Below are positions 2,801 through 28,864 of a stretch of DNA of 34,291 nt, one piece after another. Position 1 is the first letter of the stretch. Every line of letters starts with the position of its first letter. Below the pieces are notes generated by a model, which was not told the origin of the DNA, made no database searches, and saw nothing but the letters and a program-made list of their open reading frames with translations. Both the position numbers and the translations under genes were made by a program. The stretch lies in IMG/VR virus record IMGVR_UViG_3300047551_001904, positions 1 to 34,291 of that record. The stretch is one strand, 5' to 3'. The stretch comes from a virus.

Positions 2801-3105
2801 TGCCTAAAGCAGTTTATAAGGACGTTAGTCCCTGGAAAATGACGCCTATTAATAATAATTATTTAGGTTATTTTAAAATTAGACCTTTAATTGTTGAAAG
2901 TGATGATATTTTGTACTCTATCGAACCTCAGTATACATATAGACCGGACTTATTAGCTTATGATTTATATGGCGAAGCAAAGCTTTGGTGGGTTTTCACG
3001 CAGAGAAACTTAGATGTCTTAAGCGATCCGATATTTGACTTTGTACCAGGAGTAAAGATTTTTCTGCCAAAGATACAAAATATAAAATCTAGTTTGGGAT
3101 TATAA
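2800..3105 (+). CDS. 53: baseplate wedge subunit gp53-like
   Basis: This small wedge protein of 101 residues has the gp53 signature in its second half: TYRPDLLAYDLYG (about 45-57), then KLWWVFTQRN (about 61-70) and DPIFDFVPGVKIFLP (about 76-90). T4 gp53 has 196 residues, so this is a reduced form. The WW-F-RN pattern followed by a LysM-like G-I-LP strand is typical of the family. It overlaps the gene before it and the gene after it by one base each (TAATG twice), which suggests translational coupling. In T4, gp53 clamps neighbouring wedges around the hub. Confidence 0.78.
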   Translation: MPKAVYKDVSPWKMTPINNNYLGYFKIRPLIVESDDILYSIEPQYTYRPDLLAYDLYGEAKLWWVFTQRNLDVLSDPIFDFVPGVKIFLPKIQNIKSSLGL

Positions 3106-7720: not shown

Positions 7721-8163
7721 TGACAGCCAGTAGTAGACTATATGATAAGGTAGTATTAACTAAAGCAAATACTAAATCTGTACCAGGTACAAAGACTTAT
7801 CGTGGATTTAGCACAGTATCCACTGACGGAAATAGCTTTAGCCTTTATGATTTACAGTTAATTAAGCAAGATTTGATTAATAACTTTCATATTAGAATGG
7901 GCGAGAGATTAGAGCAACCTGAATTTGGAACAATAATTTGGGACGTAATTTTTGAGCCATTGACTGATGATTTAAAAATAGCAATTGTTCGTAATGTAGA
8001 GCAAATTATTAATTTTGACCCTAGAACTAAAGCAGAGCAGGTAATTGTAACTACCTATGAATCAGGTATACAGATTGAATGTGTCTTAACTTACTATCCG
8101 TATAATATTCAAGAGTCATTACAGCTTAAATTTGATCAAGAAAACGGTATTGCTATAGGTTAA
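7720..8163 (+). CDS. 25: baseplate wedge subunit gp25-like
   Basis: This protein of 147 residues belongs to the gp25 family, a core wedge protein conserved across contractile tails and type VI secretion (TssE-like). The motifs are FSLYDLQLIKQDLINNFHIR, then the family hallmark MGERLEQPEFGTIIWDVIFEP, then DPRTKAEQ and a beta-strand C-terminus. The EQPEFG segment is the widely conserved core. I chose ATG at 7720, which overlaps the gp5 stop as TAATG and has GGGAG ten bases upstream, over a TTG three codons earlier. T4 gp25 has 132 residues. It is the last gene before a 45-bp gap containing a late promoter. Confidence 0.9.
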   Translation: MTASSRLYDKVVLTKANTKSVPGTKTYRGFSTVSTDGNSFSLYDLQLIKQDLINNFHIRMGERLEQPEFGTIIWDVIFEPLTDDLKIAIVRNVEQIINFDPRTKAEQVIVTTYESGIQIECVLTYYPYNIQESLQLKFDQENGIAIG

Positions 8164-8208: not shown

Positions 8209-11200
8209 ATGTCAATAACTGATAGACAAAATCGATTATTAGTTGCCGAGGATTGGCGTAGGATATATCAGAGTTTTCGCAACGCAGATTTTCAAAGCTA
8301 TGACTTTGAAAATCTTCGTCGGGTAATGATAAGTTATATTAGGGAAAATTACCCTGAAGATTTCAATGACTATATTGAAAGTAGCGAATATCTTGCCTTA
8401 ATAGATTTAATTGCTTTTTTAGGGCAAAGTATCGCCTATCGTATTGATCTTAACAGTAGGGACAATTTTTTAGAATTAGCTGAACGAAGAGAAAGTGTTT
8501 TACGATTAGCAAGGCTTCTTAGTTATAATGCTAAAAGAAATATTGCAGCCAGCGGATTATTAAAAATTTCAAGTGTTCAAACAACGCAAAATGTACTAGA
8601 TAGTAACGGCAGAAATTTAGCAGGGCAGGTAATTACCTGGAACGATCCTAGCAATGTAAACTGGTATGATCAATTTATAAAAATATTAAATGCAAGTTTA
8701 CCTGCAACAAAGCAAATAGGAAATCCAGAAGATAAAAAGACTATCTATGGAATCCCCACAGAGCAATATAGATTTCAAAGTAATAACTTAGACGTACCAA
8801 TTTATAGTTTCGATAAAAATATTGATGGTAGAAACCTTAGTTTTGAAATTGTTAGTTCTACCTTTAAGTCAACAGATGAGATATACGAAGAGCCGCCCAA
8901 TCGCGGTAATCGTTTGGCATTTTTATATAGAAATGATGGTAAAGGTAATTCTAGTTCTAATACTGGATTTTATATGCTGTTCAAACAAGGGCAGTTAAGT
9001 CAAGGGGTATTTAATTTTACACAGCCAGCTCCTAATCAAACTTTAGATATCGATGCAAATAATATTAATAATGATGATATATGGTTATATCGTTTAAACG
9101 CAAAAGGGTTCGAGGATGAATATTGGCAAAAATTGAGTTCTTTGGAAGGAAACAATGTAATATACAATAGCCTAGAAAAGTCTATTAGGAATTTTTATGC
9201 TGTAGTTACCCGTGTTAACGATAAAGTTACATTACAATTTAGTGACGGAGTATTTGGCAATTTACCATTAGGATCATTTAGAGTTTATTATAGAACAAGT
9301 GAAGGAGTAAATTTTACTATTAATCCTAGAGATATGCGTAATATCAGTATAGAAGTTCCTTATATTAGTAATTTTAATCAACCCGAAACTATTTTAATTA
9401 CTTTAAGTTTAGTAAGCAGTGTCAATAATAGTAGCCCTGCGGAGTCTAGTGCAAATATTAAACAAAGAGCACCTGCTACCTATTATACTCAAAATAGAAT
9501 GATCACAGCAGAAGATTATAGCCTAAGTCCATTTAGTGTTAGTCAGCAGGTAGCAAAAGTTAAAGCTGTCAATAGATCTAGTAGTGGAATTAGCAGATAT
9601 TTTGATTTAGTCGATCCTACTGGGAAATATAGTAAAACTAATCTATTTGCAGATGATGGAATAATCTTTAAAGAAGAATATATTGATAGTTTTCAATTTA
9701 AATTTGATACTAAAACTGATATCGAATCTATAATTTATAATCAATTATATGAGTATATGTCAAAGACAAGTCTTAGAGATTATTACTATGACAAATTTAC
9801 AAAAATAATTCCTACCGATACATATTGGGTAAGTGTAACAGAAGAAACTAACTTATCTACAGGATACTTTAAAAGCAGCTTTTCTGCTACAGCTTTAAAG
9901 GTAGGAGTTTATACCAGTAGTAGTTTAAAGGCAGTATTACCAGGAAGTTTACTAAAATTTAAAGCACCAGGAAACTATTATTATAACACATTAAATAATA
10001 ATTCTTTAACTTTAAATTCAAATCAATTTGGTGTTGCAAAATATATTTTCACAAAAGTTATTAGTGTATCTGGAGACGGAACACAAGGTGGAGAAGGTAT
10101 TTTAATTACAGGTTTAGGAACCATTAAATTTAATGACATTATTCCAGATGGATCAGAATTAGTAAGAATCGTCTCCCCTTTTAAAGTTACAATGAACAAA
10201 AATGTTATAAGTTCAATGATTGAGCTTATTAATTCTCATAAGCCATTTGGTTTGAGATATGACGCTACAACAAGTTCTTGGGCTATTATATATGAAGTCA
10301 ATCTAAATTTAACAGATAGCTTTAGCCTTGCACAAGCTGGATATAATACTAATGAAAAGGCAGATAGTAGTTGGATGGTAAGTTTTGTATCAAATTCAGA
10401 GTATTATACGGTTAGTTTTAGATTTTTAAGATATATTTTTGAAAGTGATAAACAAATCAGATTTTACTATGATTCAAGTGATAAGATTTATGATACTCGA
10501 ACCAACACTGTAGAAAAAGATAAAATTAGATTACTTAGTATTAATACAGATAACACAAGTTTAAGTCCGTTTACTGTAGATTTAGATTTAGAAATAGTTG
10601 AAGAATATAAAGGATTAGATGGTTACTTAGATACAAAAAAAATACAAATTAGTTTTGCAGATTCGGATGATGACGGAATAGTAGATAATCCAGATATTTT
10701 TGATTTGATAACTTCTACTGTATCTACTGATTTGCAGTCAAAATATATTGTTGAGCAATTATACACAATTGAAGATAATCAAGAAGATTACAAATACTTT
10801 AGTAATACAGATTTGAAAGTATTAGTAATGAATTCTGAAACAAGCTTAACAAATCTCTCAATTTATAATGACGGCCAGTATTTTTATTTCATAGATACAG
10901 ATGTTGTAAAAAAGCTTAATAAAACTACATCTGAGCTTATTGTTAGTCTTGATTATAAATGTTATAAAGGTAGAAGTAGTATTAAATTTCAATATATTCA
11001 TAATGCAGATTATGAAACAAGGATAGATCCGGGAATTACTAATATTATTGATATTTTTATTTTAACAAAACAATATGATAAAGAATTTAGAGAATATTTA
11101 GACGGAACACGGAGTATAATGCCATTACCTCCTAGCACGGATGCATTGTATCTAATGTTATCAAAAGATTTAAATTTAATTAAAACAATCAGTGATGAGA

Positions 11201-11655
11201 TAATTTATCATCCAGCTAGATATAAAATTTTATTTGGGTCAGCTTCTAGCATTGACCTTCAAGCATCTTTTAAAGTGGTTAAAAATCCAGAAATTGTAAT
11301 AAGTGATAATGATGTAAAATCCAAGGTGATAAGTGCTATAAATGAATTTTTTAATATAGATAATTGGGATTTCGGAGATAATTTTTATTTTACTGAGTTA
11401 TCTACATTCGTTATGAATAGATTAGCAACAAGTATCGTAAATTTTTTAATTGTGCCTAAAAAGAGTAATTTAACTTTTGGCAGTTTAATCGAGATTAAAG
11501 CTGAAAAAGATCAGATTTTTGTAAGTGGTGCTACTATTGATGATATAGAAATTATTAGTGCTGTTACAGCAACGAGAATAAAATCTACAGGTACAATTAG
11601 TAGTTTGTCAACTTATTCTATACAACAAAATATAATTAGTTCATCAGGAAGTTAA
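8209..11655 (+). CDS. 6: baseplate wedge subunit gp6-like
   Basis: This central wedge protein has homologues that dimerise into the continuous ring of the baseplate; its core is related to Baseplate_J proteins. Residues about 17-107 carry the N-terminal signature (RRIYQSFRNADFQSYDFENL, SSEYLALIDLIAFLGQSIAY, ERRESVLRLARLLSYNAKRN). The J-like core follows to about residue 480. The C-terminal block at about 1031-1072 contains FFNIDNWDFGDNFYFTEL, and SGATIDDIEIIS closes the protein. At 1,148 residues it is much longer than T4 gp6 (660). The excess is in the middle (about 500-960) and includes a perfect DxDxDG calcium-type loop at 818-826. The gene has its own late promoter at 8183-8190 and is followed after 2 bp by the giant structural gene. 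Confidence 0.92.
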   Translation: MSITDRQNRLLVAEDWRRIYQSFRNADFQSYDFENLRRVMISYIRENYPEDFNDYIESSEYLALIDLIAFLGQSIAYRIDLNSRDNFLELAERRESVLRLARLLSYNAKRNIAASGLLKISSVQTTQNVLDSNGRNLAGQVITWNDPSNVNWYDQFIKILNASLPATKQIGNPEDKKTIYGIPTEQYRFQSNNLDVPIYSFDKNIDGRNLSFEIVSSTFKSTDEIYEEPPNRGNRLAFLYRNDGKGNSSSNTGFYMLFKQGQLSQGVFNFTQPAPNQTLDIDANNINNDDIWLYRLNAKGFEDEYWQKLSSLEGNNVIYNSLEKSIRNFYAVVTRVNDKVTLQFSDGVFGNLPLGSFRVYYRTSEGVNFTINPRDMRNISIEVPYISNFNQPETILITLSLVSSVNNSSPAESSANIKQRAPATYYTQNRMITAEDYSLSPFSVSQQVAKVKAVNRSSSGISRYFDLVDPTGKYSKTNLFADDGIIFKEEYIDSFQFKFDTKTDIESIIYNQLYEYMSKTSLRDYYYDKFTKIIPTDTYWVSVTEETNLSTGYFKSSFSATALKVGVYTSSSLKAVLPGSLLKFKAPGNYYYNTLNNNSLTLNSNQFGVAKYIFTKVISVSGDGTQGGEGILITGLGTIKFNDIIPDGSELVRIVSPFKVTMNKNVISSMIELINSHKPFGLRYDATTSSWAIIYEVNLNLTDSFSLAQAGYNTNEKADSSWMVSFVSNSEYYTVSFRFLRYIFESDKQIRFYYDSSDKIYDTRTNTVEKDKIRLLSINTDNTSLSPFTVDLDLEIVEEYKGLDGYLDTKKIQISFADSDDDGIVDNPDIFDLITSTVSTDLQSKYIVEQLYTIEDNQEDYKYFSNTDLKVLVMNSETSLTNLSIYNDGQYFYFIDTDVVKKLNKTTSELIVSLDYKCYKGRSSIKFQYIHNADYETRIDPGITNIIDIFILTKQYDKEFREYLDGTRSIMPLPPSTDALYLMLSKDLNLIKTISDEIIYHPARYKILFGSASSIDLQASFKVVKNPEIVISDNDVKSKVISAINEFFNIDNWDFGDNFYFTELSTFVMNRLATSIVNFLIVPKKSNLTFGSLIEIKAEKDQIFVSGATIDDIEIISAVTATRIKSTGTISSLSTYSIQQNIISSSGS

Positions 11656-11657
11656 TA

Positions 11658-14600
11658 ATGGCCGTAGATAAAGATCCTCCAGTTCCAGTGACAAATAATA
11701 ATAAAAGAAGAACATCTGATCTTTTACCTCGATTTTATAGGACTGATGCAAATAAAAAGTTTTTAAATTCTACTTTAGATCAACTTACAAGTCCAGGTAC
11801 AGTTAAAAAGATAAGTGGATATATTGGAAGGCAATACGCAAAAAGTGTAAAAACAGAAGATATATTTTTATCTGCAACTGACAAGTTAAGGCAAGATTAT
11901 CAATTGGAGCCTGCTTTAGTTTACCAAGATGAGTTTGAAAATGTAAAATTTTTTAAGGATTACATTGATCATATTAATCAAATATCAGTGTTGAACGGAA
12001 TAACAACTAATCACGAAAGAATTAATAAGCAAGAATTTTATAGTTGGAATCCTAATATAGACTGGGATAAGTTTGTAAACTTTCAACAATATTATTGGCT
12101 TCCTAATGGACCAGATCCAATAACTATTTCAGGACAGCAGTTAGCGATAGATAGTACCTATACTGTACAGTTAGAGGACCAAGGTGACAATTATGCTTAC
12201 TTGTTCACTCCAGACGGTCTTACAAGAAATCCCACATTAATTTTATTTAGAGGGCAGACTTATAGATTTTCGATTACTAGTCCAAACAATCCGTTTAGTA
12301 TTAAAAATTTGAGAACAGAGGGTCCTTTAGATTTATATACAAATAATACTAACATTGTTAGTGATTCTTCAGTAGAATCAGGGGATATTGTTTTTAATGT
12401 TCCTTTTGATGCCCCTGATGAATTATACTATCTAAGTGAAAAAGATGCCAATGCTGGGGGTATAATTTTAATTAAGGACATAGAGGAAAATACTTTTTTA
12501 GATGTAGAAAAGGATATTGTTGGGAAAAAGACTTATACATTGCCTAATGGTTTAAGTTTAAGTAACGGAATGAAATTAGATTTTATTGGTAACACTAGTC
12601 CCGAATTTTATAAAAATAGTTTTTGGATAGTAGAGGGCGTAGGAGAAGCAATAAAGCTTATTGATATCAAGCAGTTAGAGATCTTATCTACTTTTACTGA
12701 AGAACAGGCATTGTTATTTGATAATGATCCTTTTGATAAAGTTCCATTTAGCTCTATTACTAATTACCCTAAAAGTAAAGATTATCTTGTCATTAATAGA
12801 TGTAGTAAAGATAAGAATGCTTGGAGTAGGACTAATCGTTGGTTTCATCAAGATGTTATTAAGGCAACAGCAGAGTACAGAGGGTCAAACTTAGAGTTAG
12901 ATCAATTTGCACGAGCTATTAGGCCTATAATTGAGTTTAATGCCGATCTAAAACTTTATAATTTCGGTCACTGTGCTAAGGCAAATGTAGATTTGATTGA
13001 TAATACCACTACAGATGTTTTTTCTACGATTGTGGGAACTTTAGGATATAATATTGATGGTATTGATCTAGTAGATGGTATGAGGGTGTTATTTACAGCT
13101 GACCCTGATCGTTTAGTAAATGGAAGAATCTTTCGAGTAGAATTTGTCGAGATAACAGTTCCAGGCAGAATGATTAATTTCAATGCTAATGCTCCTTCAG
13201 ATTCTACCGGTAGCGTTAACATTATAACAGATACTATTAAATGTGAATTAGACCACGGTTTAATAAATGGTGATCGAGTTATCTATCTAAGTAATAATAA
13301 TATTCAATTGCAAGGACTTACTCATAGGCAAATTTATTTTGTGAAAGTTATAGATCCTAAAACTTTACAATTGTATACAGATAGCTTTTTATCAAATGTG
13401 GTTGATATATATGCCACCGGAGATGGAATTCACAGTTTAGAGGTCTTTTCAGGTTTTAGACGACAAATAAATCTTATAGAAACTGAAGATTCAATTCCTC
13501 AACTTAATGAAACTGTTTTAATAAATCAAGGTATAGTTGACGAAATTAAATTAAATGATGATAAAATTATTAATGGTAATCAAGGATTAATGTATTGGTA
13601 TAATGGAAAATCTTGGTTATTAGGGCAAACTAAAACAGATATTAATCAAGCTCCATTATTCGATATATTTGACAGTTTAGGGAATAGTTACTCCGATGCA
13701 ACAGTATATGATGGAACTAATTTTAAAGGAACTCCTTTATTTTCTTACAAACAAGGTACTGGGTCTAGTGACAGTGAACTAGGATTTGCATTAAGTTATA
13801 GAAATATTAATAATGTTGGAGATATTGTTTTTAGTTTTAATTTATTAGAGGATGCTTTTTATTATAAAGATGTAACTAAAATTTATTCAAAAAGTTTAGA
13901 CGTTGGATATCTTAAAAAAATTATTAGTTTAACAGATTCTACTTATGAGAATGGATGGGTAAAAAATGAATTACCAAATGTTCAGCCTATAATTAGAATT
14001 TTTAAAAAACATAATATTGATGGAGTTATAACAGGTTTTCCTATTGATGTATTTGATGATCACGCAGATACTTCTGATTTAACAGTAAAAGTTTATATTA
14101 ACGGTAATAATTATAGGGACTTTACAGTAAAAAAAGGAACGGTAAGAAAAGAAGTTTTTTTCAGTAAAGCAGTAACAAGTACTGATGTAGTATATTTTAA
14201 ATTTTATTCAAAGCAACCTAAGAACGAAAATGGCCATTATGAATTTCCAATTAATTTTCAATACAATCCTCTAAATCACAATCTTACACAATTTACTCTT
14301 GGAGAAGTGATTGATCATGTTAGCTCAATAGTAGATAACTTATCTAATTTTACTGGGTTATTTCCAGGATATAGTAATCTAAGAGATTTAGGACATGTTA
14401 GTCATTTTGGAACTAGGTTTGTACAACATAGTGGTCCGTTAAATTTATCTTTATATAGTTTAGGATCTAAAGAATTTAATGTAATGAGTTCTTTAAGTAA
14501 AGCAAAGAATGAATACGGTAAATTCAAAACTGCTTTTTTAGTTAAAAGTTCTGAAATAGCAATGCAGGCTGAGCCTAAACAGTTAACAGATCGTATTTTA

Positions 14601-17600
14601 CAAGAATTAAACAAAGATAAACCAAAAACGGATTCCTATTATCTTAGTGATATGTTTGCCTATACAGCAAATAAAAAATTTGAATATCGAGTATTAGATT
14701 ATAGAACTAAAATATATCCATTGAATAACGTTTTTAGTTTAGATGTTTTGTCTAATAAATCAGTTTTAATTTATAAAAATAATACGCAACTATTACACGG
14801 TAAGGATTATGTTTTTAATTCTGACTACTTTGAAATTTTAACAGAGTTGGTCGACGATGATTTGTTGGAAGTTTACGAATATGAGACCACCGACGGAAGT
14901 TTTTGCCCCCCAACTCCTACAAAGTTGGGATTATATCCTTTATATCAACCAAAGAAATATATTGACGATACATATTTGACTCCAACTTTGGTTGTTCAAG
15001 GGCATGACGGAAGTATTACAATAGGGTTTAATGACTATAGAGACGATGTTCTTCTCGAATTAGAAAGCAGAATATACAATAATATTAAAATTAAGTATGA
15101 TACAAAGCTATTTGACATTTATGACTACATACCAGGAAAGGATAGAAGCTTAACATATTCTAAAAAAGAGCACGATGAAATTTTAAGTAAGTATTTTTTC
15201 GAATGGTCTTCTAATGTTCAGAATGATTATAGTCAGGTAGCATCGTATGATCCTGCTAATTATTTTACATTTAACTATAGAGGAGCATCGTTAGTTGATG
15301 ACACAGATGTATCTGCATTTTGGAGAGGAATTTATAAATGGGTTTTAGATACAGATCGCCCTCATACACATCCTTGGGAATGTTTAGGATTTAGCATTGA
15401 GCCATCTTGGTGGCAAGAGACTTACGGTCCTGCTCCTTATACTAGTGATAATTTTGTATTATGGGATGATATTAAAGACGGTATAATTAGAGAACCAGGA
15501 AAAACTTTACAATATAATAAAAAGTTTGCTAAAAGTATATTGGCTTATGGTAAACCTGTTAATTCTATTGGAAAATTAGTCGATCCTGTCACAAGTCTTT
15601 TTGTAAAAAATATCTCACGATTGTCTGAAGGAGGGTATTATGTGTTTGGTGATTGCGGACCAGTAGAAACAGCCTGGCGCCGTAGTAGTTATTGTCCTTT
15701 TAGTTTATTACAAGCTGCTATATTAATGAATCCTTGTAAGGTTATAGCACTTACTTTTGATAGAAGCAGAGTGAAAAGAAATGTAGTAGGTCAGTTAATT
15801 TATTCTGATACAGACGTAAGAATAAGATTAGATAAGCTGATATTACCATCTACAATAAATGATAATGTTAGGAATTATACAAGTGGGTTAGTAAATTATG
15901 TTATTGACAATTTATCTGTAGAGCTTCCTGTTTATATTGCCAAATACAAAAATGAATTGTTAAATTTAAAAAATAAGATTTCAACAAGATTAGGTGGATT
16001 TACTAGTAAAGAAAAATTAAAAATAATTTTAGATAGTAAAAGTCCTAGTAGTACAATGGGTATTTTTGTACCAGATGAAAATTATAAAATTTTTCTTAAT
16101 ACTGGTAGTCCTGTAAAGAAAGTTGATTATAGTGGTGTTATAATAACAAAGTTTGCGGACGGATATGACATAAGAGGTTATAACAAAGAATCTCCTTATT
16201 TTAAGTATTATACTTGGGATAGCCCAGGAAGAGGCGTAAATGTAGGTGGTATATCTGAAAGTTATATAGAATGGGAAATCGATAGTAGATATGTTTCTGG
16301 GCAAATAGTAAAATATAATAATGGTTATTATAGAGTTAACATTAGTCATACTACAGAATCTTATTTTGACAAAACTTATTATACGAAATTAAGCTCATTA
16401 CCTGTAGTTGGTGGTAGAGATATCTTAATAAGAAAATCTTTTGATAAACGTTTAGAACTTGTTTTAAGTTATGGAACAAAGTTAAGAACTATTCAAGAGG
16501 TTGTTGATTTTATTTTAGGATATGGTGAGTATTTGTCTGATCAAGGTTTTTTGTTCGATGATTATAACGCAAATTTAAAAGCTGTTGAAAATTGGGAAAC
16601 CGGCGCCAAAGAATTCGCATTTTGGACTACGCAAAACTGGTCAGCTGGCAGTGCTTTAAGTTTAAGCCCTTCTGCAATAAATCTAAATCTAGCTAGTAAT
16701 TATTCAGTTGTGGATAATTTGTTAGATGATTTTTATGGATATAAAATTTTTAGAGTAGATGGTGAACTGTTGTCATCTAATTTGACTAATAGTTATAGGC
16801 AAGATAATTCTTTTTCTCTAAGTCCTAAAAATACTAATCACGGGATATATGGTGCTACTTTAAGATTAGTACAAAAAGAACATATTTTATTATTAGATAA
16901 TATTACACTATTTAATGATATAATTTATGATATAGAGCCTGGCTATAAGCACGATAGGGTAAAGATGATAGGATACTTATCATCTAATTGGAACGGTGGA
17001 TTTGATATTCCAGGGTTTATATATGACAGAGCTGTAGTAGAAAGTTGGGAACCTTGGACTGATTATAATTTAGGAGACATCGTTTTTCATAAAGATTTTT
17101 ATTATAGTGCTAAAAAATTTATTCCTGGCACAGACAATTTAAAAGAAGAAGATTGGAACATTTTAGATTCTAAGCCAGAAAGTAGAATGTTGCCAAATTG
17201 GGATTATAAAGCGGAACAATTTACTGACTTTTATGACTTAGACAGTGACAATTTTGACTCGGAGCAACAACGGTTAGGGCAGCATTTAATAGGTTATCAA
17301 AAAAGACAATATTTAGAAAATATTATAAACGATGATATTAGCCAATATAAATTTTATCAAGGAATGATATCGGAAAAAGGAACGCAAAATGTACTCAACA
17401 AGCTGTTTGATGTATTAAGTGCCGATGATCAAGAGAGCTTAACATTCAATGAAGAATGGGCAATTCGTGTAGGAAGTTACGGAGCTAGCGATATCTATAA
17501 TGAAGTTGAGTTTAATTTAGATGAGCAAAAAATACAAATAAATCCTCAGCCAATATTGTTAACAGAGAATATTGGCTACGATCCTGATTTTATCTATAGA

Positions 17601-20600
17601 ATAAAGCAGTCTGATATAGTAATTAAGCCAGTAGATTATAGTCATAATATTTGGCCTACTTCTAATGTAAAAGATTTTTTAAGGTCTGCCGGATATGTAA
17701 GATACACAGATGTTCTTAAGAATTTTGATACATTGGAAGAAGTCCTAAACGAAGATATTAGTAATTATAGAGAAGGCGATTATGTTTGGACGGCTTTTTT
17801 AGCACCTCCAAAAAATTGGTCTGTATATAGGTTAACTAAGCATTCGTTTAGAATAGAAGTGATAGAGTATAGTTCAGGTACTTTAACAATAATGGTTGAT
17901 ACGATTCCTAATGTAAGTGTTGGCGATATTTTGGGTTTATCTAACTTAGAGCTAGTAAAAGGATTTTATAAAATTGCAGATGTTGTAGGTAGGAAGATTT
18001 ATATAAAGAAAAAATTGCCAGGCGGTGATATTCTAGTGACAGGCGATAGTTCGAGCTGTGTTCCATTTTATTTCACCGAATCAAGAGTTGATTTAATTGA
18101 TAATTTAAATGAAAATATTCCTAAAAGAATAAAAGATTCTGAATTAATATGGGTAGATAATAATGGATCAAATAACCAAGTAATTTTAGAACATTCAAAA
18201 ATTTATAAAAATGTTTATATAGATCATTTAAATATTGTTGAGTCTAATTTACAATTCGGAAGAGCTATAGCTGTTAATAAAGAAGGAACTATTGCAGCAG
18301 TAGGTGATAAAAAACAAGTTACTATTTTCTTTAAAAATATTGAAGATTCAGTTTGGAAACAACAATTTACTATTGTAAGTTCTTACTCTGATAGTAAAGA
18401 TTTTGGATTTTACCTAAGCCTAAGTCCAGACGGTAATTGGTTAGGTATATCTGAAGCAAAATTAGATAATAGTAGATATGTTCATTTTTATAGCAGAAAT
18501 AGTAACCTTGGTACTTTTAATTACAGGCAGACAATTACAGGAATTAGTGTAACAGCAAGTGATTTAGGATCTGGTATATCTATAGCCAAGGAGCTTGATC
18601 AATATATTGCTATTATAGCTGCTGCTAATAATAATAAAGCTTTTGTTTACACTATTTCTTTATCTGATACTGATAATTGGATATTACAACAAACCTTAGT
18701 TGAGTCTGGAAGTGTTTCTTTTGGTTATGATGTATCCTTATCTGATGATTCCAGTAAGATAGCTATTAGCGATCCTGGAACAGATAAAGTTTATGTATAC
18801 GAACGAACAAGTAATGGTTATAGTAATTTTCAAACAGTAAATGACATTACTTTAAGTTTAGATAGATTTGGACAATCTATAGCATTATCTGGAAATGGAA
18901 AATATCTTGCAGTTGGAGCGTCACTAGATGATAGCACACTTGCAGATAGCGGTAGAGTTGATGTTTATATTTTGAATGAACAATATGAGTTACAACAAAA
19001 AATAAAAAGTCATCGACCAGAATCGTTTGAGTATTTTGGTTATGAAATTCAGTTTATGAATGATGATAAAACTCTTGTTATTTTAAGTTTAAACGGTGAT
19101 GTTGATAACTTTGTAACTTTTGATAACGGAACAACTACTTTTGATAATCATACAAGTCGTTTTAATGATGTCCATATAAATGCAGGTCGCATTGATATTT
19201 ACGATAGGTATAATATAAATTTTGTATTTGGCCAAAGTTTAACTACTAATGAAGGTACAGATTTAGCTGACAATTATGGTTATGCGATTGGCGTTGGCGC
19301 TAATTCCGTTTTAGTTGGTGCCCCAAATGAAACTCAAGATACATTGTCTAAAGCAGGCAGAGTGTTTTCTTATTATAAGTTTCCTGAGTCGTTTAATTGG
19401 TCGATAAAATATGAGCAGGCAGATAGAGTTATAGTTGATAATTTTAAAAAGTCTTACCTATATGATTCGGTTGAACAGAAGCTTATTTCATATATAGATA
19501 TCTTAGATGTTACACAAGGAAAAATAGCCGGACCTGCTGATCAAGAAATTAGATTTAAAACCTTTTACGATCCTGCAACTTATAATATAGGAACTGACGA
19601 TGTAAGTGTTGATGATGGCCAAACCTGGAATAAAAAACAAGTAGGAGTATTATGGTGGGATCTAAACAAAGCTAAGTTTTTAGATGCTACAGTAGGAAAT
19701 GAAACTTACAGAGCAGCTAATTGGAATAAGTTATATGCTACAGCTAGTGTTGACATATATGAATGGGTTGAAACAAAATTTAAACCTTCTGAATGGGATA
19801 CGATGTCTGGCACAGAAAAAGGTGAAGCATTAGGTATAAGTGGTACATCTAAGTATGGTAATTTATGTTATAGTGTAAGACAATACTATGATAGAATAAG
19901 TCAAAGTTTTAAAAACATTTATTATTATTGGGTAAAAAATCCTACTATAATTCCTAATACACAAGATAGGTCTTTAAGCGCAAATGATGTATCTAAGCTA
20001 ATTTCCGATCCAGTCGCTCAAGGTTATCCTTGTCTATCCTTTACTTCGCCTAGCTCATTTATTTTGATTAACTTAGCTAACTACATTAAATCTACATCTA
20101 CTAATCTTAATATAGAATATTGGACAGTTGATAAACAGTATAGGACAACTAATAAACACAGTCAATGGAAATTAATCAGTTCTCATGAAAAAACGATAAT
20201 TCCTACTCAAATAGAACAGAAATGGTTTGATAGTCTTATTGGAAAAGACTCGTATGGTAGACTAGTTCCGAGTAATTTCTTACCTATTAAGAAAAAATAC
20301 GGAGTGCTCTTTAGACCTAGACAAAGTATGTTTGTTAATAGGATAGAAGCATTGAAGCAGTTTATAGAAAGAACAAATAAAGTTTTAAAATCTAGGATAA
20401 TCACTGACGATTATGATATATCAAGGTTGTTAGAAAGAGATCCTATTCCTAATATTTTTTCAGGTTTATATGATGTTGTAGTTGATACGGTTGATGAATT
20501 TAGATTTGTTAATACATCATTAGTAGAGACAGCAGGATTTACTCCTGTAATCAAAGATGGGAAAATAACTGATGTTAATATTATTAATCCTGGATATGGG

Positions 20601-23600
20601 TACAAGACAAGGGCATATCTCACTGTTTCAGGAACCGGTAAAGGAGCAGTTCTTAGAACAGTTATAAATGATTTAGGGCAGGTAATTGATGTAGAAATAG
20701 TTAATAAAGGTTATGGTTATACTGACTCTACAACTCTAAACATTAGGAATTTTAGTGTATTAGTTAATACTGATACAACTATATTAGGAATTTGGTCCAT
20801 TTATGAATATGTTAAACAAACCAACAACTTTTATAAAGTTCAAAGTGAAGGATATAATGTAACTAATTTTTGGAACTACATTGATTGGTACGATGTGGGC
20901 TACAGTCAATTTACAAAAATAGATCATTTAGTAGAAAACACAAATAGATTGTATTCATTGAAGTCTAATATAGGAGATGTTGTAAAGGTTGAAACAATAG
21001 GAACTGGTGGGTGGTTATTATTAGAAAAGTATAGCAGTAAAACTACTATTGATTATACACAAAATTACAAAGTTATCGGAAGGCAAAATGGAACTATAGA
21101 ATTAAGTTCGGGGTTATATGATTATTCTGCCAATATTATTGGTTATGATACTCAGCTTTTTGATAGTCAATTTTATGATTATTTTCCTGCTAAAGAATTA
21201 GAGATCATATTAAATGTTTTAAAAAATAATATTTTAGTGGATGATCTTTATTCAGAGTATTTAAATTTATTTTTTAGCAGTTTGCGGTATGTTATGTATG
21301 AGCAACCTTTTGTCGACTGGGTCTATAAAACTAGTTTTGTAAAATCAAAACATAATTTAGGAGAATTAAAACAAAAAGTTACTTACAAAAATGATAGTCT
21401 AGAGAATTTTGAAGATTATATTAAAGAGGTAAAACCTTACAGAACAAAGATTAGAGAGTATGTAAGTAGTTATACCAAGATTGAAAATACAAATTCAATG
21501 GTTACTGATTTCGACCTTCCAACTTTTATAGATAGTAATTTTACCTCAAAAACTGTTAATATAAACATTCAAGATGATTCTACTTTTAGTTCTATATTAT
21601 CACAATATCCTTGGAAAAATTGGAAAGAAAATGTCGGATTTAAGGTAAAATCTATAGAAATAGTTGATGGCGGTTCTGGTTATATTAGTAACCCTATAGT
21701 AAAAATTATCGGGGCTAGTAAACGTGCTGCTAAAGCTAATGCATTTATAAGTGCAGGTAAAGTTAATAGGATACAAATTACAGACTATGGATCAGGATAC
21801 CTATCAGCTCCTAAGATTATTTTAGACGGTGGATTATCTGTTACTGGAGTTCAAGCTAAATCTGTTGCTGTTATTGAGAGTGAGGTTGTAAAATCAACTC
21901 TTGTAGCAATAAAATTTGATAGAGTTTCGAAAACTTCTCTAACCGGATCTGATCTTGCAATAACAGAAACTTTTATAGGAACCGGCAGTCAATTGCAGTT
22001 TCAATTAAAGTATGCACCTCGAACACAACGGGATACTTACAATGTTACTGTAAATGGGCTAGACATTTTAAAAGACGATTTTATTGTTGCTGTAAAAAAA
22101 TCGTTATCACGAGGTTTTACTTCCTATTATGGAATACTTACTTTAGAAACTGCTCCGAGTCGAGGGGATATCATTGTTATAACATATCAAATTGGGTTTG
22201 AACATCTTAATGCTTTAGACAGAATAAAGCATTTTTATGACCCAAGTTTATATATGTTAGGTAAAGATTATGCACAATTAATGACGGGTATAGATTACGG
22301 CGGAGTTAACATACAAGGTTTAGTTAACTTTACCGGAGTCAAAGGATTTGATAGTGATTTGTTTGGAGAAACCGGCTGGGGTGCCGACAATGCTGAATTT
22401 GAAGATCAAATTTTTGTAATACCCAATGATAGTACATACGGTGAATTTGAGTTTGATTATATTCCGGCTTCAGGCCAGCACATAAATGTTTACCTTAAAA
22501 GGGCTATTCCAGGATCGATAAATGAGTATACTGAGATTAGGTTAGATGATATTAACTTTAATACATCTACCCCTGTTATAAACGCAAATGCAGTGATGTC
22601 TACAATAATAGGCAATGGCGTTACTAACAAATATGAATTACCTAATCCTACAAGTAATCCTCCATTAGAGCTTGTAGCTGATGATATTATAATTTTTAGA
22701 AAAAATACAAGCGATGGGAGTATTAAACCTAATTCGGAAGATTATGATACACAATTAGAAGGCGGCAATTTAAGTTATACGACAGCATTAGGGATTAACC
22801 CTGAAGATGTAGTAGTGGATGGGGATGGGTTGATTACTCCAAATACTAGTTTTGCTCCTGAAGAGGTTGTACCGGGACAGGTAGTTGATGCAGTTGCTAT
22901 TAAAGTATTCCAATCAAGTGTAAGAAGTTCTGCAAATATTTTCCAAAAAACATTTATAACTGATGGAACAAGGGTAGATTTTCAATTAGACCAGTTACCG
23001 CAAAATACAAGCGCAGTTTTTGTCAAAGTAGGAAATTTGATGAAACGCTTAAATGTAGACTATTCCTTTAATTGGCAAACAAGAAGTGTACATTTTTATA
23101 TAGCTCCGGCTAATAATCAAATCGTAACAATTATAGGAATGGGATATACTGCTGCTAAAATATTAGATTTAAATTATTTTGTATCGGACGGAAGCACATT
23201 GGAATTTGTAACTAATGCTCCATTCAATAATGAAACTTTAGGTCATATAGTTTTAGTTGATGGAGTCTCTGTTAATTATGAAATTTTCGAAACAGATTCT
23301 TCTTATACTGACATTTATAAAGTAGGAATAAGGTTTGGTGTAGCTCAACCTATAGATTCTGTTATCACGTACATGATAACAACAGATGAAAATTATAGTG
23401 CGAGCATAGTTAGGTCAGACCAATTGGCGATTGATGGTAGTACAGTTCAGTATCCATTAATAAGTCCAGTTGGAATTAAAGACCCGCTAGCTAATAATAT
23501 ACTTGTAATTAAAAATGGAGAAATTTTAAATCCTGGTATCTCTGAATGTTTTGTTTTATCTGATAATGATCTTACATACACAATGACGAAATATAAGCAA

Positions 23601-24869
23601 GCACCTGGAACAGTTAATCCCACGTTAATTAAGGTTTATTTAGATGGAGAAGAACTGAACTTAGGTTTAGATTATACTATTAATCTAGCAGGATTTTCAA
23701 TTACATTGAATGCCTTAAAGTATATTGAAGGAAGTATATTAACAGTGATGAACACGCAAACAAGTCAATATACTATAGAAAGTTCAGCATCGAGTAATAG
23801 TATTATCTTTGCTTCGGCACCTGCGTTAGGCTCAGTAGTCGATATTGTAAGTTTTTATAATCATGATATTTTGGATATTGTTAGAACTCAGGAGCTTATA
23901 AGCACTACAGCAGCTTTAGATATTGATACAGTTGATTATTATAGTTACAGTAGCTTAAAAGGTGGCAAATTTAAACTTTTTAGAAAAGTCAATTCAGATG
24001 ATTTTGTTTGGATAATAAAAAATAATAGGATGTTAACATCAGGAGTTGATTTTTATTTAGATGCAAGTTTAGAACAAATTATACTTAGCTCCCCAATCGC
24101 GTCTACTGATGTTTTAGATGTAATTTTATTTACATCAAAGAATAGCTCTTCTGGCTTCGCTTATATGCAATTTAAAGATATGTTAAATCGTTTTCATTAT
24201 AAGAGATTGAATAAAGCAAAAACAACAAGACTATCTCAAGATCTTATGCAATTCGATGCTGAAATTTATGTAGCTGATGGCGCAGTATTAGATCCGCCAG
24301 ATGTACCATTGAATAGGCCTGGAATAATTGAGATAAATGGAGAACGAATAGAGTATTTTCAGAAAAATGGTAATATATTAACAAAACTTCGTAGAGGAAC
24401 ACTTGGCACTGGCTCCCCAATAAAACATAAATCTAATACTCTTGTTGTCAATTTAGGACCATCAGAGACGATAGGATATCAAGATACTCAAGATATAACA
24501 CGAATAATAACTACAGGGCAAACTGATCAAGTAAGTCTAACTTACGCTCCAGGAATAAACAATGTAGAAGTTTTTGTAGGCGGTTTAAGGTTGAGAAAGT
24601 CTAGTTTAAATATCTTTAACCCTGACTTAGAGTTTCCGTATAGTCCAGAAGGAGATGTTGTAAATTCAGCAGAATTTACTGTTGATCAAAGCTCTAAAAC
24701 AGTGAATTTAACTAATTCAGTACCCGCAGAAAGAGAAATATTAGTAGTTAAAAGACAAGGGCAGATATGGCAGGATGATGCTACTACAGACTTAATTGAT
24801 TCCAACACTTCACAGGCTAAATTTATTTTAGCAGCAGAGCCATTTTATCCTGAATTCAGTAAATCATAA
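11658..24869 (+). CDS. giant multidomain virion protein (gp7-position baseplate wedge/adhesin)
   Basis: A single frame encodes 4,403 residues. The N-terminus (LLPRFYRTDANKKFLNSTLD, YSWNPNIDWDKFVNFQQYYW) and the blocks near 1235-1357 (HTHPWECLGFSIEPSWW, ETAWRRSSYCPFSLL) and 1848-1968 (EQQRLGQHLIGYQKRQYLEN, NEEWAIRVGSYGA) resemble the large structural protein recalled as lying after gp6 in marine T4-like phages. Other modules, in order, are: a cupredoxin-like fold (186-272); two CBM5/12-like modules (about 1538-1580, 1794-1837); a seven-unit FG-GAP-like propeller (2196-2575); GxGY repeats (2968-3031, 3327-3393); a conserved KPYRTKIREY helix (about 3260); tandem beta-sandwich repeats (3434 to about 4370), interrupted by a conserved RRGTLGTGSPIKHKS block. 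AGGAAG precedes the ATG by 6 bases. T4 gp7 occupies this position with 1,032 residues, but homology to it is not evident. Virion location is highly likely; exact role is inferred. Confidence 0.8.
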   Translation: MAVDKDPPVPVTNNNKRRTSDLLPRFYRTDANKKFLNSTLDQLTSPGTVKKISGYIGRQYAKSVKTEDIFLSATDKLRQDYQLEPALVYQDEFENVKFFKDYIDHINQISVLNGITTNHERINKQEFYSWNPNIDWDKFVNFQQYYWLPNGPDPITISGQQLAIDSTYTVQLEDQGDNYAYLFTPDGLTRNPTLILFRGQTYRFSITSPNNPFSIKNLRTEGPLDLYTNNTNIVSDSSVESGDIVFNVPFDAPDELYYLSEKDANAGGIILIKDIEENTFLDVEKDIVGKKTYTLPNGLSLSNGMKLDFIGNTSPEFYKNSFWIVEGVGEAIKLIDIKQLEILSTFTEEQALLFDNDPFDKVPFSSITNYPKSKDYLVINRCSKDKNAWSRTNRWFHQDVIKATAEYRGSNLELDQFARAIRPIIEFNADLKLYNFGHCAKANVDLIDNTTTDVFSTIVGTLGYNIDGIDLVDGMRVLFTADPDRLVNGRIFRVEFVEITVPGRMINFNANAPSDSTGSVNIITDTIKCELDHGLINGDRVIYLSNNNIQLQGLTHRQIYFVKVIDPKTLQLYTDSFLSNVVDIYATGDGIHSLEVFSGFRRQINLIETEDSIPQLNETVLINQGIVDEIKLNDDKIINGNQGLMYWYNGKSWLLGQTKTDINQAPLFDIFDSLGNSYSDATVYDGTNFKGTPLFSYKQGTGSSDSELGFALSYRNINNVGDIVFSFNLLEDAFYYKDVTKIYSKSLDVGYLKKIISLTDSTYENGWVKNELPNVQPIIRIFKKHNIDGVITGFPIDVFDDHADTSDLTVKVYINGNNYRDFTVKKGTVRKEVFFSKAVTSTDVVYFKFYSKQPKNENGHYEFPINFQYNPLNHNLTQFTLGEVIDHVSSIVDNLSNFTGLFPGYSNLRDLGHVSHFGTRFVQHSGPLNLSLYSLGSKEFNVMSSLSKAKNEYGKFKTAFLVKSSEIAMQAEPKQLTDRILQELNKDKPKTDSYYLSDMFAYTANKKFEYRVLDYRTKIYPLNNVFSLDVLSNKSVLIYKNNTQLLHGKDYVFNSDYFEILTELVDDDLLEVYEYETTDGSFCPPTPTKLGLYPLYQPKKYIDDTYLTPTLVVQGHDGSITIGFNDYRDDVLLELESRIYNNIKIKYDTKLFDIYDYIPGKDRSLTYSKKEHDEILSKYFFEWSSNVQNDYSQVASYDPANYFTFNYRGASLVDDTDVSAFWRGIYKWVLDTDRPHTHPWECLGFSIEPSWWQETYGPAPYTSDNFVLWDDIKDGIIREPGKTLQYNKKFAKSILAYGKPVNSIGKLVDPVTSLFVKNISRLSEGGYYVFGDCGPVETAWRRSSYCPFSLLQAAILMNPCKVIALTFDRSRVKRNVVGQLIYSDTDVRIRLDKLILPSTINDNVRNYTSGLVNYVIDNLSVELPVYIAKYKNELLNLKNKISTRLGGFTSKEKLKIILDSKSPSSTMGIFVPDENYKIFLNTGSPVKKVDYSGVIITKFADGYDIRGYNKESPYFKYYTWDSPGRGVNVGGISESYIEWEIDSRYVSGQIVKYNNGYYRVNISHTTESYFDKTYYTKLSSLPVVGGRDILIRKSFDKRLELVLSYGTKLRTIQEVVDFILGYGEYLSDQGFLFDDYNANLKAVENWETGAKEFAFWTTQNWSAGSALSLSPSAINLNLASNYSVVDNLLDDFYGYKIFRVDGELLSSNLTNSYRQDNSFSLSPKNTNHGIYGATLRLVQKEHILLLDNITLFNDIIYDIEPGYKHDRVKMIGYLSSNWNGGFDIPGFIYDRAVVESWEPWTDYNLGDIVFHKDFYYSAKKFIPGTDNLKEEDWNILDSKPESRMLPNWDYKAEQFTDFYDLDSDNFDSEQQRLGQHLIGYQKRQYLENIINDDISQYKFYQGMISEKGTQNVLNKLFDVLSADDQESLTFNEEWAIRVGSYGASDIYNEVEFNLDEQKIQINPQPILLTENIGYDPDFIYRIKQSDIVIKPVDYSHNIWPTSNVKDFLRSAGYVRYTDVLKNFDTLEEVLNEDISNYREGDYVWTAFLAPPKNWSVYRLTKHSFRIEVIEYSSGTLTIMVDTIPNVSVGDILGLSNLELVKGFYKIADVVGRKIYIKKKLPGGDILVTGDSSSCVPFYFTESRVDLIDNLNENIPKRIKDSELIWVDNNGSNNQVILEHSKIYKNVYIDHLNIVESNLQFGRAIAVNKEGTIAAVGDKKQVTIFFKNIEDSVWKQQFTIVSSYSDSKDFGFYLSLSPDGNWLGISEAKLDNSRYVHFYSRNSNLGTFNYRQTITGISVTASDLGSGISIAKELDQYIAIIAAANNNKAFVYTISLSDTDNWILQQTLVESGSVSFGYDVSLSDDSSKIAISDPGTDKVYVYERTSNGYSNFQTVNDITLSLDRFGQSIALSGNGKYLAVGASLDDSTLADSGRVDVYILNEQYELQQKIKSHRPESFEYFGYEIQFMNDDKTLVILSLNGDVDNFVTFDNGTTTFDNHTSRFNDVHINAGRIDIYDRYNINFVFGQSLTTNEGTDLADNYGYAIGVGANSVLVGAPNETQDTLSKAGRVFSYYKFPESFNWSIKYEQADRVIVDNFKKSYLYDSVEQKLISYIDILDVTQGKIAGPADQEIRFKTFYDPATYNIGTDDVSVDDGQTWNKKQVGVLWWDLNKAKFLDATVGNETYRAANWNKLYATASVDIYEWVETKFKPSEWDTMSGTEKGEALGISGTSKYGNLCYSVRQYYDRISQSFKNIYYYWVKNPTIIPNTQDRSLSANDVSKLISDPVAQGYPCLSFTSPSSFILINLANYIKSTSTNLNIEYWTVDKQYRTTNKHSQWKLISSHEKTIIPTQIEQKWFDSLIGKDSYGRLVPSNFLPIKKKYGVLFRPRQSMFVNRIEALKQFIERTNKVLKSRIITDDYDISRLLERDPIPNIFSGLYDVVVDTVDEFRFVNTSLVETAGFTPVIKDGKITDVNIINPGYGYKTRAYLTVSGTGKGAVLRTVINDLGQVIDVEIVNKGYGYTDSTTLNIRNFSVLVNTDTTILGIWSIYEYVKQTNNFYKVQSEGYNVTNFWNYIDWYDVGYSQFTKIDHLVENTNRLYSLKSNIGDVVKVETIGTGGWLLLEKYSSKTTIDYTQNYKVIGRQNGTIELSSGLYDYSANIIGYDTQLFDSQFYDYFPAKELEIILNVLKNNILVDDLYSEYLNLFFSSLRYVMYEQPFVDWVYKTSFVKSKHNLGELKQKVTYKNDSLENFEDYIKEVKPYRTKIREYVSSYTKIENTNSMVTDFDLPTFIDSNFTSKTVNINIQDDSTFSSILSQYPWKNWKENVGFKVKSIEIVDGGSGYISNPIVKIIGASKRAAKANAFISAGKVNRIQITDYGSGYLSAPKIILDGGLSVTGVQAKSVAVIESEVVKSTLVAIKFDRVSKTSLTGSDLAITETFIGTGSQLQFQLKYAPRTQRDTYNVTVNGLDILKDDFIVAVKKSLSRGFTSYYGILTLETAPSRGDIIVITYQIGFEHLNALDRIKHFYDPSLYMLGKDYAQLMTGIDYGGVNIQGLVNFTGVKGFDSDLFGETGWGADNAEFEDQIFVIPNDSTYGEFEFDYIPASGQHINVYLKRAIPGSINEYTEIRLDDINFNTSTPVINANAVMSTIIGNGVTNKYELPNPTSNPPLELVADDIIIFRKNTSDGSIKPNSEDYDTQLEGGNLSYTTALGINPEDVVVDGDGLITPNTSFAPEEVVPGQVVDAVAIKVFQSSVRSSANIFQKTFITDGTRVDFQLDQLPQNTSAVFVKVGNLMKRLNVDYSFNWQTRSVHFYIAPANNQIVTIIGMGYTAAKILDLNYFVSDGSTLEFVTNAPFNNETLGHIVLVDGVSVNYEIFETDSSYTDIYKVGIRFGVAQPIDSVITYMITTDENYSASIVRSDQLAIDGSTVQYPLISPVGIKDPLANNILVIKNGEILNPGISECFVLSDNDLTYTMTKYKQAPGTVNPTLIKVYLDGEELNLGLDYTINLAGFSITLNALKYIEGSILTVMNTQTSQYTIESSASSNSIIFASAPALGSVVDIVSFYNHDILDIVRTQELISTTAALDIDTVDYYSYSSLKGGKFKLFRKVNSDDFVWIIKNNRMLTSGVDFYLDASLEQIILSSPIASTDVLDVILFTSKNSSSGFAYMQFKDMLNRFHYKRLNKAKTTRLSQDLMQFDAEIYVADGAVLDPPDVPLNRPGIIEINGERIEYFQKNGNILTKLRRGTLGTGSPIKHKSNTLVVNLGPSETIGYQDTQDITRIITTGQTDQVSLTYAPGINNVEVFVGGLRLRKSSLNIFNPDLEFPYSPEGDVVNSAEFTVDQSSKTVNLTNSVPAEREILVVKRQGQIWQDDATTDLIDSNTSQAKFILAAEPFYPEFSKS

Positions 24870-24889: not shown

Positions 24890-25498
24890 ATGCACGGAAA
24901 AGATCTTACTGGCTTACATATTGAAGGGCATATACACATATATGATCCTATTGATAAAGTAACCTTTATTAACAAAAGAAATGCTATACATTATGAAAAT
25001 ATGAGTATAGCTTTAGCAGAAAGTATTGCTAATTCGGGGCAAGGCTTTGTTTATAAGCTTGCATTAGGTAACGGTGGAACAACTGTAGATCCGACAGGGA
25101 TAATAACTTACTTAACACCAAACAGTACTGGAACTAATGCTAGTTTATACAATAAAACTTACAGTAAAATTGTAGATGACAGATCTGTTTTAAATGTAGA
25201 CCCGTTAAGAAACAAAATCGAAACAAGGCATACAACAGGAAAAAATTATACAGATGTGTTTGTTACTTGTTTGCTTGATTATGGGGAACCGAGTGATCAA
25301 GAAGCTTTTGATAATACTACAAATAATAATGGTGTTTATGTTTTTGATGAGCTTGGTTTAGAATCTTATAATCCTGACGGAGATGGCCGTTTGCTTACTC
25401 ATGTAATTTTCCATCCGGTTCAAAAAAGTCTTAATCGCTTAATTCAAATTGATTACACGGTAAGGATACAAAGCCTTACAGGTTTAAGCGAGGTGTAA
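24890..25498 (+). CDS. virion structural protein, baseplate-to-fibre region, unknown role
   Basis: This protein has 202 residues. The N-terminus (HIEGHIHIYDPIDKVTFINK) is followed by an amphipathic segment. A central part then follows with LALGNGGTTVDPTGIITYL (about 57-75), and a C-terminal part with YVFDELGLESYN (about 150-161) and LLTHVIFHPVQKS (about 168-180). The ALGNGG and DELGL patterns recur in small tail proteins next to fibre genes in marine T4-like phages, by recollection. No signal peptide or membrane segment is present. The gene has its own late promoter, a weak ribosome-binding site (AGCGAGA), and a one-base gap to the tail-collar protein. It may occupy the place of gp8 or another peripheral baseplate component, but no clear similarity to T4 gp8 is visible. 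Confidence 0.6.
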   Translation: MHGKDLTGLHIEGHIHIYDPIDKVTFINKRNAIHYENMSIALAESIANSGQGFVYKLALGNGGTTVDPTGIITYLTPNSTGTNASLYNKTYSKIVDDRSVLNVDPLRNKIETRHTTGKNYTDVFVTCLLDYGEPSDQEAFDNTTNNNGVYVFDELGLESYNPDGDGRLLTHVIFHPVQKSLNRLIQIDYTVRIQSLTGLSEV

Positions 25499-27869: not shown

Positions 27870-28864
27870 TGGCCTACAAAATTAATAAAACAGATGGATC
27901 ATTACTTACAGAAGTACTTGACAGTACGATCGATCAGGTAGCGACTGATTTAACCCTAATTGGTAAAAATACTTCCAATTTTGGTGAGTACCTTAATGAA
28001 AATTTTATAAAATTATTAGAAAACTTTGCATCAACAAGTCAGCCTAATAATCCTTTAACTGGACAAATATGGTATGATACTAATGAACTGAGGCTTAAGG
28101 TTTATAGTGGACAACAATGGAAGCAAGGAAGCGGACCAATAGTATCAGGAACTGCACCATTAACTGCTAGTTTAACTCAAGGAGACTTCTGGATAGATAG
28201 TGCTGAAAATCAGCTTTATTTTTATGACGGAGAGGATGGTTTACAGTTAGCCGGCCCTATATATAAAAAGAGTCAAGGGGTAAGTGGATTTGAAGTAAGA
28301 ACAATTAAAGATACCGATAATATCGAAAGAGTAATTTTAATTTTATGGTTAGGTGGATCAGTATTAGGAATTTTCAGTAAAAATACAGTAAATTTTACTA
28401 TTCCTACAGGCATTTTTAGCACAGGAGTCGTTAATAATCCTATTAAACCTGGGTTCAACATATGTAATATACCAGCTGGTGGGCCCAATGTTTTAAAGCT
28501 TAATGCAACTGCTTCGGTAGCGCAAACATTAAGTTTGACAGATGGCTCTATAGTAACTGGGGATTCATTTGTAAGAAATGATGTATCTCAGCCTACAATG
28601 CAAGGAACATTAAACCTAGTTAGTAGTAATAGTTTAAAGTTAGGACCAGCTGGACAAGTGTCTATTGGCGTAAATTCACAAGGTAGGTTGACTATTTCTG
28701 GGACTATTTCTACTATTCTAATGAATGATAAATTAAGATTACCGATTTATACAACTACATTACGAGATGCTCGGACTGATCAAGAAAATGGAGAGATAAT
28801 TTATAATAGCTCGGTGAATAAGGTACAAGCATATGCTAATGGTGTATGGGTAGATTTGCATTAA
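27869..28864 (+). CDS. short fibre-like virion protein, paralogue of neighbours
   Basis: This 331-residue protein has the same N-terminal module as both neighbouring genes: LTLIGKNTSNFGEYLNENFI (about 29-48), then GQIWYDTNELRLKVYSGQQW (about 65-84) and GDFWIDSAENQLYFYDG. The rest is a beta-rich shaft with a glycine-rich stretch. The C-terminus, with LPIYTTTLRDARTDQENGEI and NKVQAYANGVWVDLH, is a common ending in marine phage fibre proteins. Neither a collar nor a G2-like domain is present. It is translationally coupled to the upstream gene by TAATG. The role is probably a minor fibre or decorating tail protein; the receptor is unknown. Confidence 0.65.
   Translation: MAYKINKTDGSLLTEVLDSTIDQVATDLTLIGKNTSNFGEYLNENFIKLLENFASTSQPNNPLTGQIWYDTNELRLKVYSGQQWKQGSGPIVSGTAPLTASLTQGDFWIDSAENQLYFYDGEDGLQLAGPIYKKSQGVSGFEVRTIKDTDNIERVILILWLGGSVLGIFSKNTVNFTIPTGIFSTGVVNNPIKPGFNICNIPAGGPNVLKLNATASVAQTLSLTDGSIVTGDSFVRNDVSQPTMQGTLNLVSSNSLKLGPAGQVSIGVNSQGRLTISGTISTILMNDKLRLPIYTTTLRDARTDQENGEIIYNSSVNKVQAYANGVWVDLH

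Follow-up and report, generated by a model that had tools for sequence, protein, structure and literature searches.

An uninterrupted 4,403-codon gene in the gp7 position of a viral baseplate cluster and its possible role as a wedge scaffold with a docking arm

Giant wedge-region proteins in described phages

The (gp6)2-gp7 wedge is a shared scaffold of contractile tails, as seen in T4, XM1, and A-1(L) (PMC10457771, PMC10966104). In T4 the genes stand in the order gp25-gp6-gp7, and gp7, a protein of 1,032 aa, is the one-per-wedge partner of gp6. Far longer gp7 proteins occur in cyanophages, where those of P-HM2 (4,454 aa) and ACG-2014f (4,225 aa) are both annotated as baseplate wedge initiator and that of S-SSM4 (6,932 aa) as a virion structural protein. 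Each has a clear gp7 core near its N terminus (E values of 1e-22 to 1e-28; 1e-28 in P-HM2), and gp8 follows, carrying that annotation in P-HM2 and ACG-2014f. In cyanophage S-MbCM6 (L091:14732-28192) the corresponding region is divided between a gp7 of 1,274 aa and a neighboring structural protein that spans ∼5,640 aa and contains propeller repeats; therefore, giant wedge regions exist in both fused and split form.

A second group of baseplate and tail proteins is defined by XD-type jelly rolls that dock other trimers. XD2 and XD3 dock gp11 and gp12 in T4 gp10, and other tailspike proteins (TSPs) in CBA120 TSP4 (PMC8825819); the five XDs of RaK2 gp528 have been proposed to branch the tail fiber (PMC10253068). 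Each of these three proteins forms trimers and has between two and five XDs, whereas the protein described here is a chain of ∼4,400 residues in the gp7 position.

The closest relatives of that protein belong to PHROG 10938, a family represented in RaK2, GAP32, 121Q, PA5oct, and Atu_ph07. Our literature search found no paper on what the PHROG 10938 protein does.

Reading frame, family, and gene order

The window, by which we mean the whole 34,291-nt stretch of IMG/VR record IMGVR_UViG_3300047551_001904, contains a gene at 11658-24869 on the plus strand that begins with ATG and runs for 4,403 codons with zero internal stops. At the 31% GC of the window the chance of a stop is 0.086 per codon, which gives the giant frame a log10 P of −172, and among 200 first-order Markov copies of the window no frame exceeded 186 codons. 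GC content at the three codon positions of the giant gene is 0.41/0.34/0.19, and its codon usage correlates with that of the neighboring genes in all 500-codon blocks (r of 0.87 to 0.95). When the gene was compared with its nearest relatives (L006 and L002, 73 to 75% identity), pN was 0.11 to 0.23 and pS 0.62 to 0.73 in nine of nine blocks; synonymous sites are near saturation, and pN/pS is meaningful here for direction only. Because pN is below pS in all nine blocks, we concluded that the entire gene is under purifying selection. The preliminary description had claimed a single uninterrupted frame, more than four times as long as T4 gp7 and under coding selection over its full length, and on each of these points the data agree with it, with chance excluded as the source of the frame.

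Among families, the giant protein matches PHROG 10938 ("virion structural protein") best, with 1,013.7 bits in five stretches, a profile match that extends over the conserved blocks. A scan of IMG/VR identified 414 stretches encoding relatives, and in all 79 loci that were fetched the relative is one unbroken frame. Uncut frames (n = 47, the window included) range from 3,680 to 5,609 aa, with 46 of the 47 being at least 4,249 aa, and a single annotated giant gene of 3,323 to 4,555 aa is found in each of nine named phage genomes. A PHROG 10938 search returned one gene per genome in 12 of 12 giant-bearing records and found the giant absent from T4, RB49, and S-MbCM6. An IMG contig from another sample (L019, 10001-12166) encodes a protein 100% identical to giant residues 1 to 722, at which point the contig ends; it was assembled independently, from the same virus or one nearly identical to it. 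Since relatives in other loci and in isolates are likewise one long frame, the sequence evidence, as far as it goes, rules out a chimera or collapse of the giant gene, a concern the preliminary description had raised.

Relatives of the giant are present in virions. The PA5oct protein gp355 was detected by ESI-MS/MS according to its record note. Mass spectrometry recovered 21 virion peptides (7.7% coverage) of CBB_236, which adjoins the gp6-like CBB_237 (PMC5259590), and 17 peptides (7.6% coverage) of phAPEC6 gp245, a 381.88-kDa protein listed directly after baseplate wedge gp244 (PMC7247149); both are taken as family members from neighbor and size, without separate alignment. By analogy with these relatives, the giant is probably a virion protein. 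It is a further member of a known, widespread, and uncharacterized family of large tailed phages.

On its minus strand the window encodes a late sigma factor and SbcD. These are followed on the plus strand by a structural gene, gp53, a second structural gene, the gp5 hub/spike, gp25, gp6, the giant, a 202-aa gene, and fiber genes, as assigned by PHROG and annotation matches. The gene ends of gp6 and the giant nearly touch, gp6 ending at 11655 and the giant starting at 11658. This arrangement is not peculiar to the window: gp6 lies immediately upstream of the giant in 69 of 70 testable loci, gp25 precedes gp6 in 66 of those 70, and in 43 of 51 loci the next gene after the giant is the 202-aa gene. 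RaK2, 121Q, and PA5oct have the same gene order as far as the giant. The gp7 position that had been proposed is therefore borne out by the order gp53 - hub - gp5 - gp25 - gp6 - giant.

Conserved blocks and modules

We aligned 34 metagenomic and nine named giants. Family-wide conservation is concentrated in blocks at about residues 1-180, 290-500, 610-1000, 1081-2050, and 2596-3290, with variable modules between them (Table 1). Folds were assigned from two structure models that cover residues 1-2262 only, with a mean pLDDT near 71 (moderate confidence).

Table 1. Positions of the giant protein's blocks and modules, and of adjacent genes, in the window
Feature	Residues	Coordinates	Strand	Remark
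gp25 baseplate wedge gene		7711..8163	+	
gp6 baseplate wedge gene		8209..11655	+	directly upstream of giant
N-terminal conserved block	1-162	11658..12143	+	helical, low-confidence model; no detectable gp7 N-terminal motif
Cupredoxin-fold module	163-281	12144..12500	+	2dv6, Z 10.7, rmsd 2.3, 100 residues
"HGL" inserted module	521-594	13218..13439	+	ten giants in all, plus cyanophage gp7s
XD-like/T7-tail-N-like module	787-851	14016..14210	+	
XD-like jelly roll	1003-1079	14664..14894	+	CBA120 TSP4 187-250 (XD2 region), 7rfv; Z 9.2, rmsd 1.7, 64 residues
Most conserved family block	1081-2050	14898..17807	+	common to RaK2, GAP32, Atu_ph07
CBM5/12-type module	1538-1582	16269..16403	+	
Second CBM5/12-type module	1797-1840	17046..17177	+	
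FYxGxIxxKGT site	1888-1926	17319..17435	+	sole candidate gp7 core, sub-threshold
Small beta-barrel	2058-2141	17829..18080	+	like endosialidase lectin-type barrel/E1 FCCH domain; 3ju4, Z 9.0, rmsd 2.4, 77 residues
FG-GAP-type beta-propeller repeats	2155-2572	18120..19373	+	most variable part
Second family-wide conserved block	2596-3300	19443..21557	+	
GSGY module within second block	2962-3029	20541..20744	+	also in cyanophage gp7
GSGY module	3329-3391	21642..21830	+	also in cyanophage gp7
XD-like/T7-tail-N-like module	3425-3519	21930..22214	+	
Five XD-like modules in a string	3750-4161	22905..24140	+	
Conserved GExIxY module	4226-4298	24333..24551	+	
Last XD-like module	4276-4365	24483..24752	+	
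202-aa gene, PHROG 11259		24890..25498	+	directly follows giant

Sequence comparison revealed no solved structure resembling the giant over long stretches, and Foldseek/VIA searches with residues 1-2262 listed single modules only. T4 gp7 was absent from all of these lists, which carries no weight against a gp7 identity. A profile match (E = 0.003) between region 2263-3300 and ribosomal protein L21 was dismissed as chance. The cupredoxin module lacks copper ligands, and we rejected the idea of a copper site: of the 34 window-clade sequences counted, 28 have no Cys in it. CBM5/12 is present at the corresponding region in 33 of 34 relatives. In Vibrio phage 2.275.O (L087:12022-15885), the CBM5/12 annotation falls in the gene that occupies the gp6 position, immediately ahead of the giant, which suggests that sugar-binding-type modules move between neighboring wedge genes.

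The only baseplate protein with domains that recur in the giant is gp10, through its XD jelly rolls, and not gp7. A profile seeded from residues 1003-1079 and the C-terminal T7-tail-N-like units detected the XD module nine times in the window protein, where seven of the copies lie in the last quarter; PA5oct has three copies, and Atu_ph07 and the gp7 of S-MbCM6 have two each. It also matched T4 gp10 weakly, with a domain E value of 0.0043 after iteration and 0.024 with an earlier model. PF03906, the T7 tail fiber N-terminal domain, was matched in the C-terminal quarter by 12 of 34 relatives. RaK2-like members of the family (3,323 to 3,341 aa) share the place after gp6 and the single frame with the window giant but lack the cupredoxin module, and the XD profile detected no XD modules in them.

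We also considered a hypervariable receptor tip at the C terminus and rejected it: pN is even along the gene, and variability peaks internally, in the propeller (residues ∼2050-2600). The preliminary description had inferred a receptor-facing fiber at the outer end of the chain. The data do not bear this out: the C terminus is not hypervariable, and XD-like modules are docking sites for other fibers in T4 and CBA120 (PMC8825819).

Relationship to gp7, candidate roles, and flanking genes

To place the giant relative to gp7, we relied on profile comparisons. In control hhalign runs, short gp7s were matched by T4 gp7 at an E value of 1e-11 and by cyanophage gp7 at 1e-15, whereas no block of the giant was significant against the T4, short, or cyanophage gp7 profiles, the GSGY modules excepted. 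A gp7 alignment search found gp7 in T4, RB49, S-MbCM6, and Ochrobactrum phage OC (E values of 1e-8 to 1e-51). In nine complete genomes and three contigs that bear the giant it gave no convincing match, those in GAP32 being marginal or in a frame containing stops. With a gp8 alignment we likewise found no recognizable gp8 in the nine complete genomes; T4, RB49, and S-MbCM6 have both gp7 and gp8, without the giant. Two further leads failed. An N-terminal LPxFxR match to gp7 that had been spotted by eye did not survive the HMM test, and a 400-residue BLAST match to the gp7 of ACG-2014f (E = 1e-8) rests on a GSGY module, the remainder not being conserved. The mosaic of conserved blocks and adhesin-like modules that had been described earlier is real, and the supposed wedge-like resemblance of the blocks to T4 gp7 is not upheld by the profiles or the N-terminal motif. 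We therefore call the giant gp7 by position and by exclusion, without demonstrated homology. A single chain reaching outward from the wedge has a precedent in the cyanophage gp7s, which resemble the giant in their place after gp25-gp6, their length, and their GSGY and HGL modules; PHROG 10938 forms a separate lineage, without a recognizable gp7 core.

Given the gp7 place and the string of XD modules, a wedge scaffold with a fiber-holding arm would be the simplest reading. We lean, with some reserve, toward the view that the giant is a baseplate wedge scaffold in the place of gp7, and apparently also of gp8, that continues into a long multimodular arm. It would replace these proteins beside gp6, with blocks 1-500, 610-1000, 1081-2050, and 2596-3300 forming a scaffold that most likely packs on gp6/gp25 and on neighboring wedges. 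The gene, its selection, its position, its family, and its modules are established; the contact with gp6, the docking of fibers, and the copy number are inferred. The nine XD-like jelly rolls would most likely dock separate trimeric fiber or spike proteins, for which the products of the downstream genes starting at 25500, 27869, and 28896 are candidate clients, and the giant would thus probably hold fibers as a long baseplate arm rather than being a fiber itself. The CBM5/12, barrel, and propeller modules would be surface insertions that may touch polysaccharide, whether surface-bound or loose.

Several points count against the scaffold reading. The conserved blocks have no sequence or fold match to gp7 or gp8, the XDs of gp10 and TSP4 act as trimers whereas a gp7-type subunit is one monomer per wedge, and the long fibers of RaK2 attach through a separate protein, gp528. 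The moderate confidence of the two models and their limit to residues 1-2262 weigh on the same side. Moreover, docking cannot have been what the family as a whole originally did, since the RaK2-like members yielded no XD modules with this profile. The ancestral protein probably served as a scaffold, to which the window clade, PA5oct, and Atu_ph07 would have added the docking arm.

A widespread group of phages has kept gp6 and gp25, shows no gp7 or gp8, and has a protein of 3,300 to 5,600 residues there instead, which makes these phages a clear target for baseplate cryo-EM. The giant marks a large group in which gp7 and gp8 either diverged past recognition or were replaced. Through the module map, a "virion structural protein" so far unnamed in phages of the RaK2, PA5oct, and Atu_ph07 types gains a testable role.

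The first alternative, a refinement of the preliminary description that we regard as possible if doubtful, is that the giant is a true but extremely diverged gp7, a wedge monomer extending into a receptor-contacting arm, whose core (an N-terminal helix-turn-helix and an FYxxKGT segment) has been split by an insert of ∼1,800 residues. The position after gp6 and the lack of any other recognizable gp7 in giant-bearing genomes are consistent with this, as are the cyanophage gp7s, in which the N-terminal core is followed by 3,500 to 6,200 residues and, in S-MbCM6 and S-SSM4, ∼690 residues separate the two core motifs. In addition, a gp7-core HMM built from 172 sequences matched 33 giants at all, and in 23 of these its best match fell at residues ∼1900-1916; 20 column-shuffled or reversed control models clustered 2 to 8 times, except for one that reached 18. 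The same site emerged from pairwise profile comparisons with T4 and cyanophage gp7s, and it was modeled as long, low-confidence helices of the kind expected of a bundle needing partners. Against this, the matches score near zero bits (P = 0.008 to 0.3), so that no single one is significant, and the giants are related, so that the 23 are not independent; the N-terminal gp7 motif was not found; and the likeness through GSGY reflects a promiscuous module common to giant and cyanophage gp7s. We therefore take the FYxxKGT-like site as a sub-threshold hint of a gp7 core.

Also doubtful is an extended form of replacement, in which one chain of 3,300 to 5,600 residues took over from gp7, gp8, and part of gp10 in a large jumbo-type myovirus group, running from the (gp6)2 bundle to a fiber-presenting arm with multiple docks. 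We consider it improbable that the giant is instead a homotrimeric tail fiber or tailspike protein hung on the baseplate, with another, unrecognized small protein acting as the wedge gp7. Its T7-tail-N, CBM5/12, endosialidase-type barrel, and FG-GAP modules are indeed typical of fibers and spikes, but its place right after gp6 is invariant, large blocks of it are conserved throughout the family, a hypervariable tip is lacking, no gp7 core was found elsewhere in the nine complete genomes, and the long fibers of RaK2 come from a different gene cluster (PMC10253068). That the gene is an assembly chimera, a frame-joined pseudogene, or a tape-measure protein, for which we found nothing but the sheer length, is scarcely credible given the same long frame in 79 loci and nine isolates, purifying selection throughout, and residues 1-2262 that are predicted to be mostly strands and loops, without long helices of the tape-measure type.

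Several features of the flanking genes were also noted. The gp5-type hub gene (5465-7720) has hub/lysozyme family matches only outside their middle part, so that it may lack the lysozyme domain that its counterparts in 121Q and RaK2 contain. Near the other end of the window, two tandem genes (30387-31358, 323 aa; 31366-32325, 319 aa) are clearly alike and have no PHROG family match. The three fiber genes (25500-27869, 27869-28864, and 28896-30377) have a common N-terminal region with the motif LxGKNxxxxGxxxxENFLxLLExFxxPxxPxxGQxWYD (PHROG 15511/14394). Their C termini differ, the first ending in a tail collar domain, the second in none, and the third in a Peptidase_G2-type autoproteolytic domain, and the three look like paralogues using one docking domain.
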